Below are positions 10,713 through 58,128 of a DNA stretch of 64,000 nucleotides, piece by piece. The first letter of the stretch is position 1; each line of letters starts with the position of its first letter. Under the pieces are notes generated by a model. The model was not told the origin of the DNA. It was given only the letters and a program-made list of their open reading frames with translations, and searched no databases. Source of the stretch: Siphonodentalium dalli (Eukaryota > Mollusca > Scaphopoda > Gadilida > Siphonodentaliidae); the NCBI GenBank assembly GCA_032622095.1, contig CP136067.1, positions 199,850,052-199,914,051 on the forward strand. The letters are read 5' to 3'. Made by a program: the position numbers and the translations under genes.

Positions 10713-13700
10713 TAATTATGTGCACCCAAAGGAATAAATCCCGGCAAGGGCCTTCATAGTAATTATATGTGCACCCACAGGAATAAATCCCGGCAAGGGC
10801 CTCCATAGTAATTATGTGCACCCAAAGGAATAAATCCCGGCAAGGGCCTCCATAGTAATATATATGTGCACCCACAGGAATAAATCCCGGCAAGGGCCTC
10901 CATAGTAATTATGTGCACCCACAGGAATAAATCCCGGCAAGGGCCTCCATAGTAATTATGTGCACCCACAGGAATAAATCCCGGCAAGGGCCTCCATAGT
11001 AATTATATGTGCACCCCACAGGAATAAATCCTGGCGAGGGCCTCCATAGTAATTATGTGCACCCACAGGAATAAGTCCCGGCAAGGGCCTCCATAGTAAT
11101 ATATATGTGCACCCACAGGAATAAATCCCGTCAAGGGCCTCCATAGTAATTATGTGCACCCACAGGAATAAATCCCGGCAAGGGCCTCCATAGTAATTAT
11201 GTGCACCCACAGGAATAAATCCCGGCAAGGGCCTCCATAGTAATTATATGTGCACCCCACAGGAATAAATCCTGGCGAGGGCCTCCATAGTAATTATGTG
11301 CACCCACAGGAATAAGTCCCGGCAAGGGCCTCCATAGTAATATATATGTGCACCCACAGGAATAAGTCCCGGCAAGGGCCTCCATAGTAATATATATGTG
11401 CACCCACAGGAATAAATCCCGTCAAGGGCCTCCATAGTAATTATGTGCACCCACAGGAATAAGTCCCGGCAAGGGCCTCCATAGTAATATATATGTGCAC
11501 CCACAGGAATAAATCCCGGCAAGGGCCTCCATAGTAATATATATGTGCACCCACAGGAATAAGTCCCGGCAAGGGCCTCCATAGTAATATATATGTGCAC
11601 CCACAGGAATAAGTCCCGGCAAGGGCCTCCATAGTAATATATATGTGCACCCACAGGAATAAATCCCGTCAAGGGCCTCCATAGTAATTATGTGCACCCA
11701 CAGGAATAAATCCCGGCAAGGGCCTCCATAGTAATTATGTGCACCCACAGGAATAAATCCCGACTAGGGCCTCCATAGTAATTATGTGCACCCACAGGAA
11801 TAAATCCCGACGAGGGCCTCCATAGTAATTATGTGCACCCACAGGAATAAATCCCGGCAAGGGCCTCCATAGTAATTATGTGCACCCACAGGAATAAATC
11901 CCGACTAGGGCCTCCATAGTAATTATGTGCACCCACAGGAATAAATCCCGACGAGGGCCTCCATAGTAATTATGTGCACCCACAGGAATAAATCCCGGCA
12001 AGGGCCTCCATAGTAATTATGTGCACCCACAGGAATAAATCCCGACGAGGGCCTCCATAGTAATTATGTGCACCCACAGGAATAAATCCCGGCAAGGGCC
12101 TCCATAGTAATTATGTGCACCCACAGGAATAAATCTCGATGAGGGCCTCCATAGTAATTATGTGCACCCACAGGAATAAATCCCGACTAGGGCCTCCATA
12201 GTAATTATGTGCACCCACAGGAATAAATCCCGGCAAGGGCCTCCATAGTAATTATGTGCACCCACAGGAATAAATCCCGGCAAGGGCCTCCATAGTAATT
12301 ATGTGCACCCACAGGAATAAATCCCGGCAAGGGCCTCCATAGTAATTATGTGCACCCACAGGAATAAATCTCGACGAGGGCCTCCATAGTAATTATGTGC
12401 ACCCACAGGAATAAATCCCGGCGAGGGCCTCCATAGTAATTATGTGCACCCACAGGAATAAATCCCGTCAAGGGCCTCCATAGTAATTATGTGCACCCAC
12501 AGGAATAAATCCCGGCAAGGGCCTCCATAGTAATTATGTGCACCCACAGGAATAAATCCCGACTAGGGCCTCCATAGTAATTATGTGCACCCACAGGAAT
12601 AAATCCCGACGAGGGCCTCCATAGTAATTATGTGCACCCACAGGAATAAATCCCGGCAAGGGCCTCCATAGTAATTATGTGCACCCACAGGAATAAATCC
12701 CGACTAGGGCCTCCATAGTAATTATGTGCACCCACAGGAATAAATCCCGACGAGGGCCTCCATAGTAATTATGTGCACCCACAGGAATAAATCCCGGCAA
12801 GGGCCTCCATAGTAATTATGTGCACCCACAGGAATAAATCCCGACGAGGGCCTCCATAGTAATTATGTGCACCCACAGGAATAAATCCCGGCAAGGGCCT
12901 CCATAGTAATTATGTGCACCCACAGGAATAAATCTCGATGAGGGCCTCCATAGTAATTATGTGCACCCACAGGAATAAATCCCGACTAGGGCCTCCATAG
13001 TAATTATGTGCACCCACAGGAATAAATCCCGGCAAGGGCCTCCATAGTAATTATGTGCACCCACAGGAATAAATCCCGGCAAGGGCCTCCATAGTAATTA
13101 TGTGCACCCACAGGAATAAATCCCGGCAAGGGCCTCCATAGTAATTATGTGCACCCACAGGAATAAATCTCGACGAGGGCCTCCATAGTAATTATGTGCA
13201 CCCACAGGAATAAATCCCGGCAAGGGCCTCCATAGTAATTATGTGCACCCACAGGAATAAATCTCGATGAGGGCCTCCATAGTAATTATGTGCACCCACA
13301 GGAATAAATCCCGACTAGGGCCTCCATAGTAATTATGTGCACCCACAGGAATAAATCCCGGCAAGGGCCTCCATAGTAATTATGTGCACCCACAGGAATA
13401 AATCCCGGCAAGGGCCTCCATAGTAATTATGTGCACCCACAGGAATAAATCCCGGCAAGGGCCTCCATAGTAATATATATGTGCACCCACAGGAATAAAT
13501 CCCGGCAAGGGCCTCCATAGTAATTATGTGCACCCACAGGAATAAATACCGGCAAGGGCCTCCATAGTAATTATGTGCACCCACAGGAATAAATACCGGC
13601 AAGGGCCTCCATAGTAATTATGTGCACCCACAGGAATAAATCCCGGCAAGGGCCTCCATAGTAATTATGTGCACCCACAGGAATAAATACCGGCAAGGGC

Positions 13701-16028
13701 CTCCATAGTAATTATGTGCACCCACAGGAATAAATCCCGGCAAGGGCCTCCATAGTAATTATGTGCACCCACAGGAATAAATCCCGATGAGGGCCTCCAT
13801 AGTAATTATGTGCACCCACAGGAATAAATCCCGACGAGGGCCTCCATAGTAATTATGTGCACCCACAGGAATAAATCCCGGCTAGGGCCTCCTTAGTAAT
13901 ATATATGTGCACCCACAGGAATAAATCCCGATGAGGGCCTCCATAGTAATTATGTGCACCCACAGGAATAAATCCCGGCAAGGGCCTCCATAGTAATATA
14001 TATGTGCACCCACAGGAATAAATCCCGATGAGGGCCTCCATAGTAATTATGTGCACCCACAGGAATAAATCCCGTCAAGGGCCTCCATAGTAATTATGTG
14101 CACCCACAGGAATAAATCCCGATGAGGGCCTCCATAGTAATTATGTGCACCCACAGGAATAAATCCCGGCAAGGGCCTCCATAGTAATTATGTGCACCCA
14201 CAGGAATAAATCCCGGCAAGGGCCTCCATAGTAATTATGTGCACCCACAGGAATAAATCCCGATGAGGGCCTCCATAGTAATTATGTGTACCCACAGGAA
14301 TAAATCCCGGCAAGGGCCTCCATAGTAATTATGTGCACCCACAGGAATAAATCCCGATGAGGGCCTCCATAGTAATTATGTGCACCCACAGGAATAAATC
14401 CCGGCAAGGGCCTCCATAGTAATTATGTGAACCCACAGGAATAAATCCCGATGAGGGCCTCCATAGTAATTATGTGCACCCACAGGAATAAATCCCGATG
14501 AGGGCCTCCATAGTAATTATGTGCACCCACAGGAATAAATCCCGCCGAGGGCCTCCATAGTAATTATGTGCACCCACAGGAATAAATCCTGTCAAGGGCC
14601 TCCATAGTAATTATGTGCACCCACAGGAATAAATCCCGACTAGGGCCTCCATAGTAATTATGTGCACCCACAGGAATAAATCCCGGCAAGGGCCTCCATA
14701 GTAATTATGTGCACCCACAGGAATAAATCCCGACAAGGGCCTCCATAGTAATTATGTGCACCCACAGGAATAAATCCCGATGAGGGCCTCCATAGTAATT
14801 ATGTGCACCCACAGGAATAAATCCCGATGAGGGCCTCCATAGTAATTATGTGCACCCACAGGAATAAATCCCGCCGAGGGCCTCCATAGTAATTATGTGC
14901 ACCCACAGGAATAAATCCCGCCGAGGGCCTCCATAGTAATTATGTGCACCCACAGGAATAAATCCTGTCAAGGGCCTCCATAGTAATTATGTGCACCCAC
15001 AGGAATAAATCCCGACGGGGGCCTCAATAGTAATTATGTGCACCCACAGGAATAAATCCCGGCTAGGGCCTCCATAGTAATTATGTGCACCCACAGGAAT
15101 AAATCCCGGCAAGGGCCTCCATAGTAATTATGTGCACCCACAGGAATAAATCCCGGCTAGGGCCTCCTTAGTAATATATATGTGCACCCACAGGAATAAA
15201 TCCCGATGAGGGCCTCCATAGTAATTATGTGCACCCACAGGAATAAATCCCGGCAAGGGCCTCCATAGTAATATATATGTGCACCCACAGGAATAAATCC
15301 CGGCAAGGGCCTCCATAGTAATTATGTGCACCCACAGGAATAAATCCCGACGGGGGCCTCAATAGTAATTATGTGCACCCACAGGAATAAATCCCGGCGA
15401 GGGCTTCCATAGTAATTATGTGCTCCCACAGGAATAAATCCCGACGGGGGCCTCCATAGTAATTATGTGCACCCACAGGAATAAATCCCGACGGGGGCCT
15501 TCATAGTAATTATGTGCTCCCACAGGAATAAATCCCGGCAAGGGCCTCCATAGTAATTATGTGCACCCACAGGAATAAATCCCGCCGAGGGCCTCCATAG
15601 TAATTATGTGCACCCACAGGAATAAATCCCGGCAAGGGCCTCCATAGTAATTATGTGCACCCACAGGAATAAATCCCGATGAGGGCCTCCATAGTAATTA
15701 TGTGCACCCACAGGAATAAATCCCGGCAAGGGCCTCCATAGTAATTATGTGTACCCACAGGAATAAATCCCGATGAGGGCCTCCATAGTAATTATGTGCA
15801 CCCACAGGAATAAATCCCGACTAGGGCCTCCATAGTAATTATGTGCACCCACAGGAATAAATCCCGGCAAGGGCCTCCATAGTAATTATGTGCACCCACA
15901 GGAATAAATCCCGGCAAGGGCCTCCATAGTAATTATGTGCACCCACAGGAATAAATCCCGGCAAGGGCCTCCATAGTAATTATGTGCACCCACAGGAATA
16001 AATCCCGGCAAGGGCCTCCATAGTAATT
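10713..16028. repeat. 5.3 kb minisatellite, 47-bp unit, about 113 copies, with higher-order repeats
   Basis: The unit reads TAATTATGTGCACCCACAGG, AATAAATCCCGGCAAGGGCC, TCCATAG. Most units differ only at a small variable site after 'AATAAATCC' (CGGCAAG, CGACTAG, CGACGAG, CGATGAG, CGTCAAG, CGCCGAG) or at TTATGTG against ATATATGTG (3 bases longer). It fills most of RPL27A intron 3. The many minus-strand frames (up to 142 codons) come from the repeat: 47 is not a multiple of 3, so a frame cycles through all registers. I regard them as non-coding. After the array, 16029-16362 is plain AT-rich intron. Confidence 0.97.
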
Positions 16029-46571: not shown

Positions 46572-46790
46572 TCAATTAAAATGTTGAGGTACATATTCCT
46601 CATCCCGTTCATACGTTCTCTTCTTTCTCGGTGGAGTCGACTCCGAGGGACTCTCAGGCTCGGACGGTTCCTCAGACGTCGGACATTCTAACTGTTTTAG
46701 ATACTCTGAGTAACAAGGGCAGTACTGGTCGACGAGGAACTCAAACACAGTATTCACAGTCTTCCCAGCTTTACCCACTTCGGATATCGT
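46572..46790 (-). CDS. TRIM33-like: TIF1-like gene, last exon: bromodomain C-terminal helix and tail
   Basis: 219 bases (72 residues and TGA) starting at the acceptor tgtttccacag. TISEVGKAGKTVNTVFEFLV corresponds to the final bromodomain helix of TIF1 proteins (human TRIM33 has SEVAQAGKAV here). The tail is acidic and Ser/Pro-rich, then basic (PPRKKRTYERDEEYVPQHFN), comparable in character to the KKR tail of TRIM24/33. Phase 0 joins the previous exon as FFNS-TISEV. This is the real 3' end: the stop is followed by the inverted-repeat 3' region. Confidence 0.93.
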   Translation of the reverse strand, partial: TISEVGKAGKTVNTVFEFLVDQYCPCYSEYLKQLECPTSEEPSEPESPSESTPPRKKRTYERDEEYVPQHFN

Positions 46791-49137: not shown

Positions 49138-49290
49138 CGAATTGAAGAATGCACAATTGGAGAAGACTAATTTGACATCGAGCAGAAATTCCTCAAAACA
49201 CTTGTAATGGTCGAAGTGATCCCTCGAAAGCTTCATCCTTATTGCTGAGAAGTCCATCGGTTGAGTTATCACCTTATAGTAGTTTGGTAC
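49138..49290 (-). CDS. TRIM33-like: TIF1-like gene, bromodomain exon (ZA loop to acetyl-lysine pocket)
   Basis: 153 bases, 51 residues: VPNYYKVITQPMDFSAIRMK, LSRDHFDHYKCFEEFLLDVK, LVFSNCAFFNS. VPNYYKVITQPMD is the bromodomain ZA-loop signature. The last N of NCAFFN is the position of the acetyl-lysine-anchoring asparagine. Closest to the TIF1 family (TRIM33: IPNYYKIIKKPMDLS), whose bromodomain works jointly with the PHD finger to read histone H3 tails. Acceptor tgattgaag, donor TCG|GTGAGT, phase 0 at both ends. A polypyrimidine tract is poor on this acceptor. Confidence 0.95.
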
Positions 49291-51849
49291 CTTCAATCAT
49301 AAGATAGGGTTTTTATTAGCGATGTGTGGTTTTGAAATTTCATTTTGGTTTTGGTATGGTTTCTTTGTAGAAAAATCAGGTTTTGGTTTCGGTTATGGTT
49401 TTACTCATTATACCAATGACTATATGCATCGAGCAGATGTTATAATATGAGATAACATTTCCAGCCACTTTCCAGTGATTTCCATATGTGGCAATATGTG
49501 CTATTATCTCTCATATCACACCCAAATGTTACAAATTGAAAATGCTAGTGGTGGCAAATAGCAGCTGACAAAAAACGTGCCCTAACCACATGTCTTGTAA
49601 AAGCGACATTCAGCGACCATGTGTCGGTTAATTGAAATCCAATATTACTTTTTACCACAACCCGGACGAATACAAGAAAAACACATAATGTACACAACAT
49701 TGTATAATATTGTGAACAGTATGTGTTTTATTTTATTCATCCGGGTTGTGGTAAAAAGTAATATTGTTATTATCCATCTGTATGTTTATTTAAATTTTGG
49801 GAATAAAACTTTTGTATTTATTTTTGGTATTTGTCGCACTTGATTCTCTATAAAAGCCTGTATTTGATCATCAGAAAGCATGATTTGGAACAGTAAAAAC
49901 AGAAGTGAAAAAAAAACTCAATGTGGAAGTGAGACGTCTGCTAAATCAACCAGAGTATTTCACGTACATCACAATGTCACCGATTCATTGGGCAATAGAG
50001 TTACTTCGTCAAACCACGGAGTCCCAATAAAAAATTCATATTTGGACTCGATTGAGTCCAATATGATTTTCGGGAGTTCAATATGACCTTTTCCTGGATT
50101 ATCATGTGACAGCTTTTGCACAATCAGAAACAGTCTTAATTAAGGGATGGATAATAAAAAGAAAATAGAAGTCAATTGGTTGAATTATCACCTTGTATAG
50201 TTGGGTACAGTAATGCTCTAAATAATCGACTCCTCAACCACAGCAGAATTACCCATAATACTGCTGTGGTAAAGTAGTCGATTATTTAGGGCATTACTGT
50301 ACCTTCAATCATAAGATAACGTTTTTATATGTTTTAGATTGTTAAACAAGGAGATAAGTGAAAAGTAAAACAGCTTGAAACATTTTTGTCATATGTATTT
50401 CCCTGCATAATAATGATCGTGTATGTAAAATGAATGGGCTGCATTTTGGAACTTTTGTCTGTATGTATGTATGTTTGTTATAGACTCGAAAACTGTTTGA
50501 CCGATCCAACTCAAATTTGGTATGTCTGGTCTGCCGTAAATTGAACATAAACATATTTATCATATGACTCAATCATTATTTACGTAGGAAACTACATTGT
50601 ATGTCATAAATCAATTTCATATCAATTACTAATTCATATCACCTTCCGATAATTTGATTGGTTTGTTGACAAAAAGTGTGTTCTGATTGGCTGAATGGCA
50701 GCCGGGGGCCGAGCCGCATCTCTGACTAAATGCAGGTCAAATTCGTGCCTGTCAATCAACGCGATGCCGAAATTCTCGCAATTATAATCTTGAAATATAT
50801 AGTTTTGGACATTGTTATACGATAAATAGAATATGTAATTCGTAATTATCTAATAAACATACGATATAATGTCACAAACTGAGAACAGAATAGCCCACTA
50901 TATCTTCACGTGCATATTATTTCTGCTAGTTCACCAGGTGTAATTGGGCTTCCGGTGCAATGAAGTGACGTCACATTAACCTTATGCTGCCGATGTCATA
51001 TAGCTATTTAGTGATTTGTGTGCGTTTTGGACATCATAATCAATTTATAGGTGTCATATGATAAATAGAATATGTAATTCGTGTTTCTCTCCTATGATAT
51101 TTATGAAACTCGTCACGATTTTTCAGTTTTCTCTCGCCGGAGGCTCGAGAAAACTGAAAATTCTTAGACTCGTTTCATAAATATCATATGAGAGAAACAC
51201 TCATGAGGCCCCCACCCCCCCCCCCTGGAATACGGAATACCACTTAACACAGAGGGTGGAATACGGAATACCAGTTAACAGCCATATGGAATACATAAAA
51301 ATATATGAAAACTTCATTTTTTGGAAGGTCGGCGTACGAATACCGGTATTTTTGGATACCGAATACCTCCTAACAGAGGGGCCAGAATACGGCGTACCTC
51401 ACAACAGGGCATGGAATACGGCGTACGAAAAGGGGGGGTGGGGGCCTCACTCATTTCATATCCTCTATGTATTACAACCACCAAGTGTTCCACAACATAC
51501 ATGTGTATAAACAAGCCTTGAAATACTGTGTCTGTAATTTGCAGAATGAGGTCCCCAGAGGGTGAATTTAATGACGCTACCATGTACAGAAGGCTAGCAT
51601 AACTAAATTCACCCTCTGGGGATCTCTTTCTGCTTAGGCCTCATCTTCTCTGGAAAGTGTATTTATTATCAAATTAAAATTAATTTAATTAATTTCTTCT
51701 ATGGCGACAAATTTCAAATCAGTCATTGATAACCTACACCCCTCCCAGGTAATATACTCGGTCACTTGTCGTTTGGGATGCAAAAGCATTCTGACTCTCT
51801 CTGACCGGGGATACCTCACTCTGATCAGGGATACCTCACTTTTACTTAC
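49291..51849. other. intron with foldback elements and simple sequence
   Basis: Includes 'ggttttggt' repeats (49330-49405), a hairpin at 49637-49768 (CAATATTACTTTTTACCACA and inverse), MITE D copy 7, a hairpin at 51083-51203 (TTTCTCTCCTATGATATTTA and inverse), a GGAATACGGAATACC-type imperfect repeat (51215-51440) and an E-family fragment (51541-51640). No exon is needed: the flanking exons join in phase 0. Confidence 0.6.
50216..50301. mobile_element. palindromic TA-type MITE 'D', copy 7 (86-bp remnant)
   Basis: Both complete outer ends TA-CAGTAATGCTCTAA... and ...GGGCATTACTG-TA remain, but the inner 130 bases of the palindrome are gone. The arms meet near CAGAATTACCCATAATACTG. Confidence 0.9.
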
Positions 51850-51924
51850 AGTTTTTGGCACAGGTTCATGGAATGGTACACTAGCTTCATGACAGTATAA
51901 TTCTAAGACGATTCTCTCGGCAAC
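51850..51924 (-). CDS. TRIM33-like: TIF1-like gene, bromodomain N-terminal helix exon
   Basis: 75 bases, 25 residues: VAERIVLELYCHEASVPFHE then PVPKT. It aligns with the first bromodomain helix of TIF1 proteins (TRIM33: CERLLLYLYCHELSIEFQEP). Acceptor tgtgtttcag, donor ACT|GTAAGT, phase 0 at both ends. The following tandem repeat 'agattagtttagtagtagtt' starts inside the upstream intron just before the acceptor. Confidence 0.95.
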
Positions 51925-51939
51925 CTGAAACACAGATTA

Positions 51940-52095
51940 GTTTAGTAGAAGTTATGAAAATCAGATTAGTTTAGTAGTAGTTATGAAAATCAGATTAGTT
52001 TAGTAGTAGTTATGAAAATCAGATTAGTTTAGTAGTAGTTATGAAAATCAGATTAGTTTAGTAGTAGTTATTAGATTAGTTTAGTAGTAGTTATG
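51940..52095. repeat. 29-bp tandem repeat, about 5 copies
   Basis: Unit AGATTAGTTTAGTAGTAGTT then ATGAAAATC. The proximal copy begins about 10 bases upstream of the bromodomain exon's acceptor, so the branch-point/pyrimidine region is part of the repeat. Confidence 0.92.
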
Positions 52096-52920: not shown

Positions 52921-53536
52921 AATAAGAATAATCTTGCTCAAAGTAGTTATTTTCATAAAATAGGATCTTCATCTGTTGCAGATTGCTAACCCGTGCCATA
53001 CTAAGCACATGGACACCAAAGTTTTGACCTTTACTTGCAAGAAGTTGTACAAAAGGTTAGCGTGAACACACTATAACAAAGTAAACAGATCCTATCTAAA
53101 ATTACTGAGAAACACACAAATCACCCTCAGACTAATCACAATCATTTTTAAGTGTGGAATAGATCAATGTTGATGTCACATGATGTTGAAATTGACAATG
53201 AAACCATCAGAAAATATCAAGGGCAAAAGTTCTAGATGACATCAGTTATGAGATGTCATCAGGCATGTAATAAACACAGAACCACATGCGTAGCTCATTG
53301 ACGAGTAGTTCCCTTAGGAAATGTTCAGATCATAAGATCAAATTTTAATGTCTAAATACCGTATATTATCTGAACATTTCCCTCCAATAAATGAGACTCC
53401 TTTTGCATTTGTATTATCTGACATAGGCTTGTTTTTCCTGAAAGCCCCTTTAAACGAATAATAGACTATTCCAGTATATACTTTTATAACTAAGTGGGAG
53501 AATCCATTTAGTATATAAAGGGTTAAAATTGCCCAC
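52921..53536. other. intron, no feature of note
   Basis: A weak foldback (GGAAATGTTCAGAT / inverse) lies at about 53317-53385. Confidence 0.4.
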
Positions 53537-53626
53537 CTAGAGTTCTCTGTCACCGAGGCTCGTGGGAGCTTTTCGTTTATTAGTTCCTGGGATGTGAGCG
53601 ATAGATACCGGCTGTAATAATCTCAC
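53537..53626 (-). repeat. second copy of a 90-bp tandem duplication covering most of the PHD 3' exon
   Basis: The 90 bases repeat the 3' part of the exon just upstream (PVSIAHIPGTNKRKAPT...DREL) with a few substitutions and end CTC-TAG|GTGGGC. If both copies were kept in one transcript, the frame would continue and then stop at the TAG exactly at the copy's end. The copy also carries an acceptor-like ATTATTACAG. It is probably intronic when the first donor is used. Confidence 0.85.
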
Positions 53627-53750
53627 CTTGAGTTCTCTGTCAGCCAGGCCCGTGGGAGCTTTTCGTTTATTAGTTCCTGGGATGTGAGCGATAGATACCG
53701 GCTGTAATAATCTCTCTTTGTTGCTGCACAGGTTACAAACCCAATCACCC
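53627..53750 (-). CDS. TRIM33-like: TIF1-like gene, PHD finger 3' exon
   Basis: 124 bases complete the split Glu codon and encode 41 residues: GDWVCNLCSNKERLLQPVSI, AHIPGTNKRKAPTGLADREL, K. GDWVCNLC supplies the last two zinc cysteines of the PHD finger (TRIM33: GDWICTFC). The rest is the linker to the bromodomain, with a basic KRK. Acceptor ttattttcag, donor AAG|GTGAGA, phases 2 in and 0 out. Choosing this donor skips the 90-base second copy and its stop. Confidence 0.92.
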
Positions 53751-54415: not shown

Positions 54416-54568
54416 TTAGCCACCACTCTCCCTTATATGGGATGTAATAAATATGATGCCAAATGAGGCCCAGTTTATAGCAGCCCTTGAAATTGGTATG
54501 TATGTTTTACAGAATTTCTTGACACCAAAATATGTAGGTATATGACATGTATAATTAGACCCTTAATG

Positions 54569-54780
54569 ACTTACTCAGGAGGGCCGCCGAGCGGAGGTAT
54601 ATGGCATGTATAATGATAACCCTAATGACTTACTCAGGAGGGCCGCCGAGCGGAGGTATATGGCATGTATAATGATAACCCTAATGACTTACTCAGGAGG
54701 GCCGCCGAGCGGAGGTATATGGCATGTATAATGATAACCCTAATGACTTACTCAGGAGGGCCGCCGAGCGGAGGTATATG
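54569..54780 (-). repeat. 59-bp tandem repeat of the PHD 5' exon end and its 5' splice site, 4 copies
   Basis: Four nearly identical copies of a 59-base unit. On the minus strand each contains codons for [15 protein letters not shown], the donor GA|GTAAGTCATTAGG and a little intron. Donors lie at about 54746-54751, 54687-54692, 54628-54633 and 54569-54574. Only the first keeps the PHD frame: reading on gives GAG-TAA. Confidence 0.93.
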
Positions 54781-55188
54781 GCATGTATAATGATAGACTT
54801 TCGGACATGTATCGCAACAGAGTAGATCCCCGCCGTTGTGGCAGCAAGCGCAGTAATCTTCACTCGGATCGTCCACACTGTTTCTTATTGGGTACGGTTG
54901 AGATATATGCTGTCGTGGAATTTCTTGCGATGAGTCGTCTGCTCTGTTTCTTATTTTATGTGGACGAGATTTCTGCTGCCGTGGATTATTTTTATCTGAT
55001 TTTGACATCCCTGGTGATTCTGGACTTCGGAATTCTTGAGATATTGACGTCAACAATTCTCCGGCTGTAGGTACTTTTAGAATAGAGTCGGACAATTCAT
55101 TGCTTTGAACAGACGGATTGGATGGTGGACGTTTAGAGTCACATGATAGTCTCTGACCTTCTGATTTCACCGAACTGTGTGAACATGA
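54752..55188 (-). CDS. TRIM33-like: TIF1-like gene, PHD finger 5' exon
   Basis: 437 bases, 145 residues plus two bases. The first 110 residues are polar and low-complexity, with a SUMO-consensus VKSE near the start (SSVKSEGQ). They are followed by [20 protein letters not shown] and [17 protein letters not shown], the PHD finger's first six zinc ligands (C-x2-C, C-x2-C, H, C). Human TRIM33 has [20 protein letters not shown]. The PHD finger of this family binds the unmodified H3 N-terminus. Acceptor ttattacag (phase 0), donor GA|GTAAGT (phase 2), which the next exon completes as Glu. The 3' edge is tandemly copied. Confidence 0.95.
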
Positions 55189-55231: not shown

Positions 55232-55630
55232 TTAACCCTTTACCCAACAAAACGGTCAAAACCGGCCAAATAAAGCTTCAACAGCCTAAAATATCTTCGG
55301 TCTGTCTCAATAGAACCATACAAATATGGATATCATTGGAACCGGCTCCTTGACCACATTGTGATAGTTACAGTTATGCCCTGTGCCAATGCATTCTCTT
55401 ATATATGCGAGTCGACCATAGGTCGCCTCGCATATATAAGAGAATGCATTGGCCTAAAAAAATCTTTTTTTAACACTTTTTACCATTTTTTCTTACATTC
55501 TTTAACAATTTTATAATTTTTAATGTGTTAAGCCAATGCATTCTCTTATATATGCGAGGCGACCTATGGTCGACTCGCATATATAAGAGAATGCATTGGC
55601 ACAGGGCCCTTCTGTTGGGTAAAGGGTTAA
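55232..55630. mobile_element. piggyBac-like MITE 'A', copy 7
   Basis: 399 bases between TTAA 55232-55235 and 55627-55630, both hairpins intact. Lies 44 bases upstream of the PHD exon's acceptor. Confidence 0.93.
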
Positions 55631-56045
55631 AGGTACTCAATCCGATTTGATGGTCCCCATGTCATCGGATTCCAACAACAACAATGCTTTATAAATGCTG
55701 CTCCAGTTATCAGAATCGATTAATTACCCAAAAATAATGGTAAACACAGTCAATTATCTAGTATAAAATTGCCCAAAACCTGTTTTTATCAATATTTTGT
55801 TCAACAAAATTTTGCCGGTTTGTCAAATATCTGACACAAAAAAACACTTGATTTTTCAGTTATCCATCTTCATCCGCAATTTGGTCCGAAACGTCTTTTA
55901 CTGGGCCACCAAAAATTATCGGTGGTAAAAAATAATAGATTTCAAAAATCAATATCTGATCACTCTGAACTTTGATGGGTGAGTTCCTAGACTTCAATCA
56001 AATATTTTGACCCCCGAAACCAAGAAAATACTAATTTGTCCTCTC
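55631..56045. other. intron, dispersed repeat fragment
   Basis: 'actcaatccgatttgatggtcc' and 'ttggaatccgatgac' (as inverse) resemble, inverted, the sequence at 34910-35170 and 36840-37420. Confidence 0.5.
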
Positions 56046-57160
56046 ACTTACCTTATCTTCTATGGATGTCCTCTCACTTTTAACATATAAATTAGAGACT
56101 TTATCTTATCTTCTATGGATGTCCTCTCACTTTTAACATATAAATTAGAGACTTTATCTTATCTTCTATGGATGTCCTCTCACTTTTAACACATAAATTA
56201 GAGACTTTATCTTATCTTCTATGGATGTCCTCTCACTTTTAACACATAAATTAAGAGACTTTACCTTATCTTCTATGGATGTCCTCTCACTTTTAACACA
56301 TAAATTAGAGACTTTACCTTATCTTCTATGGATGTCCTCTCACTTTTAACACATAAATTAAGAGACTTTACCTTATCTTCTACGGATGTCCTCTCACTTT
56401 TAACATATAAATTAAGAGACTTTACCTTATCTTCTATGGATGTCCTCTCACTTTTAACACATAAATTAAGAGACTTTACCTTATCTTCTATGGATGTCCT
56501 CTCACTTTTAACACATAAATTAAGAGACTTTACCTTATCTTCTATGGATGTCCTCTCACTTTTAACACATAAATTAAGAGACTTTACCTTATCTTCTATG
56601 GATGTCCTCTCACTTTTAACATATAAATTAAGAGACTTTACCTTATCTTCTATGGATGTCCTCTCACTTTTAACACATAAATTAGAGAATTTACCTTATC
56701 TTCTATGGATGTCCTCTCACTTTTAACACATAAATTAGAGAATTTACCTTATCTTCTATGGATGTCCTCTCACTTTTAACACATAAATTAAGAGACTTTA
56801 CCTTATCTTCTATGGATGTCCTCTCACTTTTAACACATAAATTAAGAGACTTTACCTTATCTTCTATGGATGTCCTCTCACTTTTAACATATAAATTAGA
56901 GAATTTACCTTATCTTCTATGGATGTCCTCTCACTTTTAACACATAAATTAAGAGACTTTACCTTATCTTCTATGGATGTCCTCTCACTTTTAACACATA
57001 AATTAAGAGACTTTACCTTATCTTCTATGGATGTCCTCTCACTTTTAACACATAAATTAGAGACTTTATCTTATCTTCTATGGATGTCCTCTCACTTTTA
57101 ACATATAAATTAGAGAATTTACCTTATCTTCTATGGATGTCCTCTCACTTTTAACACATA
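56046..57160 (-). repeat. 53/54-bp minisatellite, 21 copies, each containing a candidate microexon with splice sites
   Basis: Read on the minus strand the unit is GTAAAGTCTCTTAATTTATG, TGTTAAAAG|TGAGAGGACA, TCCATAGAAGATAAG|. The 25-base segment TGAGAGG...GATAAG is 1 + 8 codons (ERTSIEDK) and has exactly the phase needed between the exons at 57602-58128 and 54752-55188. Most copies are followed by GTAAAG or GTAAAT; the most distal has an ideal donor GTAAGTGAG at about 56049-56057. Four copies have ATAAAG and no GT. Nine spacers are 53 bases, so read-through is frameshifted. The plus-strand frames (up to 132 codons, MDVLSLLTHKLRDFTLSS repeats) are by-products. Confidence 0.9.
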
Positions 57161-57171
57161 TAGCTGGTGCT
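57123..57171 (-). CDS. TRIM33-like: TIF1-like gene, small exon at the head of the minisatellite
   Basis: A good acceptor (ATCTATTACAG) opens a 49-base exon that runs into the first repeat unit and can end at GATAAG|GTAAAT. It completes the preceding Gly codon and encodes APAICVKSERTSIEDK, open throughout, and its phases (2 in, 0 out) are exactly those required. VKSE is a SUMO-consensus motif, as is the VKSE just inside the next exon. Human TRIM33 has VKQE-type SUMO sites in the same place before its PHD finger. Which repeat copy's donor is used cannot be told from sequence; the strongest donor is at the far end of the array. Confidence 0.72.
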
Positions 57172-57601
57172 CTGTAATAGATCGGAACACTTATTACTTA
57201 TCTGCCACACAGGTCCCCAGAACAAAAATTGACCCACCCTAATAATACTTAATCCTATAGAAAGGTACCTATCTTCTTCGGGCTGTCATTTTATAATCTT
57301 TTCACAAAAGTCCACAAACTGGTTCAAAATACAGAAAAATAATGTTTGTTCCATAAGCGTCTCATATCTATTATTACTCTTCAATTTGATGTATCCCGTG
57401 TAAAAATTGGTTCAGAAGAACTCCAGTTATGAGCACAGTTCTGATGCAGACCGGCTGTTATTTTTTACTCGTTTGGTTTAAAAAGATCTTACCAAATGTA
57501 CTGAGTTAAAACAATCTTACCAAATCAGGGCTTAAAATCTTACTTTGATTATCATTAAAAGCAGCTGATTGGCTGTAGAAAAACTTGTGAACATGACTTA
57601 C
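57172..57601. other. intron, no feature seen
   Basis: AT-rich, with a small 'aatcttaccaaat' repeat near 57485-57525. Confidence 0.4.
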
Positions 57602-58128
57602 CCATCTGACGCTACTGGGCTCCGTGAATCTGTATTGGGTGATGGTGCTACAGGTGGAGGTAGTGGAGGTGGCGTAGCTTGAGGTCGCACATGACCTGCG
57701 GCGTGTCCTGCGGCATGCTGTAATCCCTGTCGAATCAAATTACCATAGGCATTGGCTTGATTGTCAGTCACAAGCAGACGTGTCAGCGAAGAACTAAGAT
57801 TGGTTTGCCTGTTAGGAGGCGTGGCTGGCCGCATTTGGTTGACAGGCATGTGAGGTGGAGTCACAGACCTGGGTTGGTTCGGCTGCATTTGAGGAGGTGT
57901 TCTTGATCTGGGTTGAGTGTGGGCTTGGTTGCCGGGATACTGATTTCCAAACTGCGTCGGAAGGTGGCCAGTCATATTGTGATGATGTTGAACTGGTTGG
58001 TTTTGCATTGGATTGAGGATGTTTTTCGAGGGTTTGAGGATGTTCGCTAGCCGCTGGAGCTGTTGGTTTTTCGTCATTTGCTGACTACTCACATTTTGGT
58101 TATTCTGTTGCTGACCTGATCTGTTTCC
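57602..58128 (-). CDS. TRIM33-like: TIF1-like gene, Gln/Pro-rich exon
   Basis: 527 bases, 175 residues plus two bases. It starts after tttcatttag with GNRSGQQQNNQNVSSQQ and ends at the strong donor GATGG|GTAAGT. The composition is Gln, Asn, Pro and His-rich, with three R-x-x-TPP motifs (RSRTPP, RSVTPP, RPATPP). SSLTRLLVTD contains LTRLL, an LxxLL nuclear-receptor-box pattern. TIF1 proteins have a long, poorly conserved linker of this kind between the coiled coil and the PHD finger, and TRIM24 uses an LxxLL motif to bind nuclear receptors. Functional use of this motif here is inference. Confidence 0.88.

Follow-up and report, generated by a model that had tools for sequence, protein, structure and literature searches.

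How does a gene splice when the 3' end of one of its exons, together with the 5' splice site, is present in 21 tandem copies? This question is raised by a minisatellite at 56048..57160 on the minus strand of a 64,000-nucleotide stretch of DNA (hereafter the window), whose 53/54-bp unit appears to contain the end of an exon, its 5' splice site and the first intron bases. The minus strand reads GTGAGAGGACATCC[A/G]TAGAAGATAAG 21 times, with the first unit at 57148 and the last at 56077, and the 20 intervals measure 53 bases in nine cases and 54 bases in eleven. TRF reported the same array with a score of 2058 and 97% matches, and both results bear out the 21 tandem units of 53/54 bases described in the original prediction. 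When the 2.2 Gb genome, with withheld stretches reading as N, was searched with the 24-base core, allowing up to two mismatches, 21 places were found, every one within the array, and the reversed control pattern searched in the same way gave none; by this search the array locus is single copy in the assembly. GATAAG is followed by GT in 17 of the 21 copies, matching the predicted number of donor-bearing copies, and by AT in copies 2, 18, 19 and 20. The 25-base pieces of neighbouring copies are separated by 28-29 bases, in agreement with the earlier view that these intervals are too short to be introns. At its tail (56037..56053, minus strand) the array ends in the donor GTAAGTG, with its GT at 56051-56050, which runs into a repeat of AAGTGAGAGGACA. 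This tail repeats the unit's own sequence, and it looks like a truncated last copy that has lost its spacer.

The array lies between two exons of a gene that we traced on the minus strand. E1 (57602..58128) is a Q/P-rich linker exon that ends in phase 2 (GG/GTAAGT, where the slash marks the splice boundary), and E2 (54752..55188, or starting at 55174 if an alternative AG is used) contains the second of two VKSE motifs and the first part of a PHD finger. The end of the PHD finger is encoded by E3 (53627..53750), the bromodomain starts in E4 (51850..51924) and continues in E5 (49138..49290), and E6 (46572..46790) is the last exon and contains the stop codon. When 49 nt are placed between E1 and E2, the six exons form a single open frame that ends in this stop codon, and the predicted product has a PHD finger followed by a bromodomain at its C-terminus (Pfam PHD and Bromodomain). 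Exons for an N-terminal RING, B-boxes and coiled coil would be expected upstream, past the edge of the window. The best PDB match of the C-terminal part is human TRIM33 (5mr8_A, E 1e-57, 198.6 bits), followed by TRIM24 and TRIM66; the Pfam domains and this chain support the earlier assignment to a TIF1/TRIM33-like gene. An E2/E3 query gave nine other matches in the genome (35 candidates scored), all aligned solely from query residue 85, in the PHD-finger part, and among these nine, examined for a spliced or array-free version of the exon, we saw no second TIF1 or retrocopy.

Other repeats were also observed in the window. A 29-bp unit, CTAAT- and pyrimidine-rich, is repeated 6.1 times at 51926-52095, where it abuts the E4 acceptor and is possibly a repeated branch-point region, and a 20-bp unit is repeated 2.3 times at 51795-51840, starting ~10 bases into the intron past the E4 donor. 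A 47-bp unit occurs ~112 times at 10713-16028, where the minus strand has long open frames. The 24-mer AATGCATTCTCTTATATATGCGAG is found 15 times on the plus strand and 17 times on the minus strand; near 55380-55610 it makes inverted arms, and it probably belongs to a MITE-like family.

The reading frames on either side define what the array has to supply. E1 ends on two codon bases (GG) and E2, from its first AG, opens on a codon boundary, confirming the phases 2 and 0 given in the original prediction; therefore, an insert of 3n + 1 bases is needed between E1 and the first AG of E2. The stretch from the acceptor at the head of the array (ctattacag/, 57172-57174) to the donor of copy 1 measures exactly 49 bases and has an open frame that is in phase on both sides. 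We thus consider the segment at 57123..57171 on the minus strand (AG/AGCACC...GATAAG/GTAAAT), which encodes APAICVKSERTSIEDK including VKSERTSIEDK with a SUMO-type VKxE, the likely functional exon. On splice-site scores built from general consensus frequencies, the head acceptor scores 3.9 (98.1 percentile of AGs) and the copy 1 donor, GTAAAT, scores 5.0 (99.5 percentile). The acceptors inside the array (AAAAG/T) score from -3.2 to -5.9 in all 21 copies, the one at -3.2 being at the 67.5th percentile of AGs, so that the head copy indeed has the best acceptor. It was also correctly anticipated that the tail copy has the best donor: GTAAGTG, at 8.5, is the strongest donor scored, where the scoring covered four copies and the remaining GT copies have the same donor letters.

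The donors further into the array behave differently from the first. From the head acceptor, every one of donors 2-21 leads to a stop at codon 31 and donor 1 alone stays open, because the first spacing, 53 bases, shifts the frame and a stop is met in copy 2. Since the later donors give a stop from this acceptor, copies 2-21 are most likely intronic, leaving copy 1 as the most likely exon. The copy 1 donor is weaker than the tail donor, however, and a simple strength rule would therefore favour a 1120-nt exon containing the stop. The strength of this distal donor genuinely counts against the reading of the extra copies as harmless.

The protein sequence around the putative exon resembles a modified region of human TRIM33. 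The lysines of the two VKSE motifs, the first encoded by the 49-nt exon and the second by E2, are 17 residues apart, and the predicted piece aligns with the human TRIM33 segment VKQEPGTEDEICSFSGGVKQE over the same 21 residues; this segment fits the positions K776, T781, S787, S789 and K793. The available part of one study gives SUMO modification of human TRIM33 at K769, K774, K776 and K793, the last two of which an earlier study had mapped as well, together with phosphorylation at T781, S787 and S789 (PMC10353822). Like the gene described here, human TRIM33 thus has two VKxE-type sites 17 apart (K776 and K793) upstream of the PHD finger, whereas here the first, predicted site is encoded close to the 3' end of the 49-nt exon, whose border is multiplied. 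The 13 residues between the motifs align modestly better than shuffled sequences, with 169 of 20000 shuffles reaching the score at a gap cost of 5/1 and 1685 of 20000 at the usual cost of 11/1, which is only suggestive. More telling is the position of the motif before the donor. Among 3634 GTs preceded by 11 open codons in the window with the array set aside (1729 on the plus and 1905 on the minus strand), none has [VIL]KxE at exactly that position and two have the looser psi-K-x-[DE]. The exon with the SUMO-type site is probably conserved.

Repeats of this kind have been described in lancelets. In lancelet globin genes, intron-exon borders are duplicated in a minisatellite-like manner, and these arrays were named mirages after the Adh3 case; in the accessible part of that report, AG/GT signals are present in many units, the copy number differs between haplotypes and RT-PCR suggests that regular splicing is undisturbed (PMC3087553). 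PGBD5 and troponin C are further lancelet cases (from the accessible part of PMC3902484). As in the mirages described in these sources (Adh3, the globins BflGb6 and BflGb9, troponin C and PGBD5), the units here contain an exon border with its splice site: with copy 1 taken as the exon, tandem units run across the exon-intron border (VKSERTSIEDK codons, donor and intron bases), and the extra copies contain splice signals, given the GT in 17 of 21. Here, however, the host looks like a mollusc, a difference in range that does not define the mechanism, and the units number 21, compared with six and three in two haplotypes of BflGb6. Variable tandem repeats at exon-intron borders are also described in human segmental duplications (PMC2812944, in the part consulted), and they are likewise able to alter the exon/intron structure. 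In that case new introns have transcript support, while the present case is read from DNA and its 28-29-base spacers are too short for introns. In earthworm metallothionein genes, minisatellites lie within an intron and the accessible part of the report describes none over a splice site (PMC12783039). A literature search of open papers, in the parts available, yielded no molluscan case that we recognised. In our view the array is best read as an unusually long mirage from beyond the lancelets rather than as a device for SUMO tuning.

Two more exons of the same gene have repeats over their donors. A 59-bp unit is repeated 4.4 times over the end and donor of E2 (54536..54795, minus strand), where donors 2-4 hit a stop at once, and a 90-bp unit is duplicated over the end and donor of E3 (53534..53714, minus strand), with an in-frame TAG before the second donor. 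For both E2 and E3, joining at the first donor also leaves the alignment with human TRIM33 free of inserts.

We then surveyed 84 loci outside the TIF1 gene (2 PHD, 30 myosin, 24 TCP1 and 28 kinesin; 56 sequence clusters), which represent a part of the matches (30 of 85 for myosin, 24 of 53 for TCP1 and 28 of 123 for kinesin), using match ends as a proxy for exon ends and counting repeats with a period of at least 20, shorter periods being excluded. A repeat over the donor side was found at 3 of the 84 loci (2 of the 56 clusters), and over the acceptor side at none. In a myosin gene, a 67-bp unit is repeated 2.1 times over an exon end and donor (locus L012, 1619-1756; locus L010, turned, 1622-1759). 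L010 and L012 are similar gene copies, 96.5% and 94.7% identical over two aligned blocks. In neither copy is the second donor in frame; a stop precedes it in L012 and not in L010. The muscle myosin exons match best chains from scallop and squid (278-274 bits, vs 257 for the next), which makes a mollusc or a close relative the probable host. The molluscan haemocyanin family PF14830 had no match, but the controls gave none either, so this result has no bearing on the phylum. The third locus, L054, is a chaperonin gene of the TCP1 family with a 63-bp unit repeated 1.9 times over an exon end and donor (1585-1705), in which the second donor is open and in frame and would add 21 residues. The first donor preserves the frame in all five distinct cases (array exon, E2, E3, myosin and chaperonin). 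In L067, a 31-bp unit is repeated twice inside the matched frame, short of any border, and was not counted.

The survey did not reveal a general enrichment of repeats at donors, since points 150-1350 bases off were covered at 1 to 14 of the 84 loci. All five distinct cases lie at donors and none at an acceptor, a bias that is not significant (p = 0.0625), whereas lancelet mirages are found at both borders in the accessible reports. The TIF1 gene has border repeats at 3 of 9 exons, vs 2 of 56 clusters in the survey (p = 0.017, or 0.073 leaving out the 21-copy array). For this comparison the gene was selected post hoc, and two of its nine exons were assessed by visual inspection of open frames. 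A minisatellite that was born on an exon-intron border is consistent with the nearby arrays over other donors and with the lancelet precedents.

Three other explanations have to be weighed against the use of copy 1. The original prediction proposed a splicing-choice array, in which 25-nt microexons or in-frame blocks of several copies are picked from the inner copies and adjust how many SUMO sites are encoded. Frame does allow this in part: among 172 pairs of an inner acceptor with a GT donor, 44 are open, comprising 17 single-copy and 27 multi-copy pairs, the latter carrying one to six VKSE, and copies 10-16 form one in-frame run. All of these pairs depend, however, on inner acceptors that score far below the head acceptor, so that the predicted retained blocks with multiple VKSE exist as frames and would be reached only from weak acceptors. 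The 25-nt exon itself, although in frame, would not carry VKSE, as the GTT AAA codons fall upstream of the AAAAG/T boundary. Four donors have lost their GT, and the variants in the exonic part are too few to show constraint across copies, with one variant in 21 copies and spacers that likewise vary little (7 types in 20). Nor do the copies resemble mutually exclusive exons, each of which would have a good acceptor and donor of its own with true introns between. We consider a choice among inner copies very improbable, and the tuning of SUMO-site number proposed with it is not borne out. It would also be possible for the whole array to be intronic, with E1 spliced to the second AG of E2 (55174) to give ...SPVASDGSVKSEGQ... 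This join starts 14 bases into E2, is in frame and stays open to the gene end without any array sequence; contrary to the earlier argument, frame by itself therefore does not require array sequence in the mRNA. The second AG scores -1.6, vs 3.8 for the first, and a correctly spaced VKxE ahead of a donor would then be a very rare chance event. The join would also lose SCSHSS and the first VKSE, both of which have a counterpart in human TRIM33 (numbering from the available part of PMC10353822). The all-intronic arrangement is thus unlikely, and array sequence is very probably part of the mRNA.

A third explanation accepts copy 1 as the exon and gives the extra copies a role: the additional donors would compete for U1 snRNP, and the copy number would set how much of the TRIM33 mRNA is productive and how much contains the stop. 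The array has 17 GT donors with the strongest at the far end, and all later donors are unproductive from the head acceptor, which speaks in its favour. The lancelet-array papers, in the parts available, report or suggest on the other hand that regular splicing is undisturbed (PMC3087553, PMC3902484), and we regard donor competition as quite unlikely. In its widest form, the array would be a natural rheostat, where up to 17 donors compete with the first donor and the copy number of an individual alters the amount of productive TRIM33-type mRNA or of the isoform bearing the SUMO site; this, too, we rate as a doubtful idea with a small chance of being right.

The probable explanation is that a mirage-type minisatellite expanded at the 3' border of a 49-nt coding exon in this TRIM33-type TIF1 gene, with copy 1 as the functional copy. 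The unit would consist of the exon end (VKSERTSIEDK), the 5' splice site and ~16-20 intron bases, repeated 20 more times, presumably by tandem duplication and unequal exchange. Copy 1 would be spliced from the acceptor just upstream of it (57172-57174) to the first donor (57122), and would supply one SUMO-type VKxE site, with the second following 17 residues later, the same spacing as between K776 and K793. The later copies, lacking a proper acceptor and 28-29 bases apart, would be removed together with the intron; if a later donor were used now and then, a premature stop would result.

These observations extend donor-spanning minisatellites beyond lancelets and show, in what is probably a mollusc, a SUMO-type region with two sites as in TRIM33. 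Lancelets already provide examples of duplicated exon-intron borders, and the main interest here is the choice of splice donor. One acceptor is followed by seventeen donors, of which the last is the strongest and the first alone keeps the frame from that acceptor, making the locus an extreme experiment of nature on spliceosomal choice among many near-identical donors.
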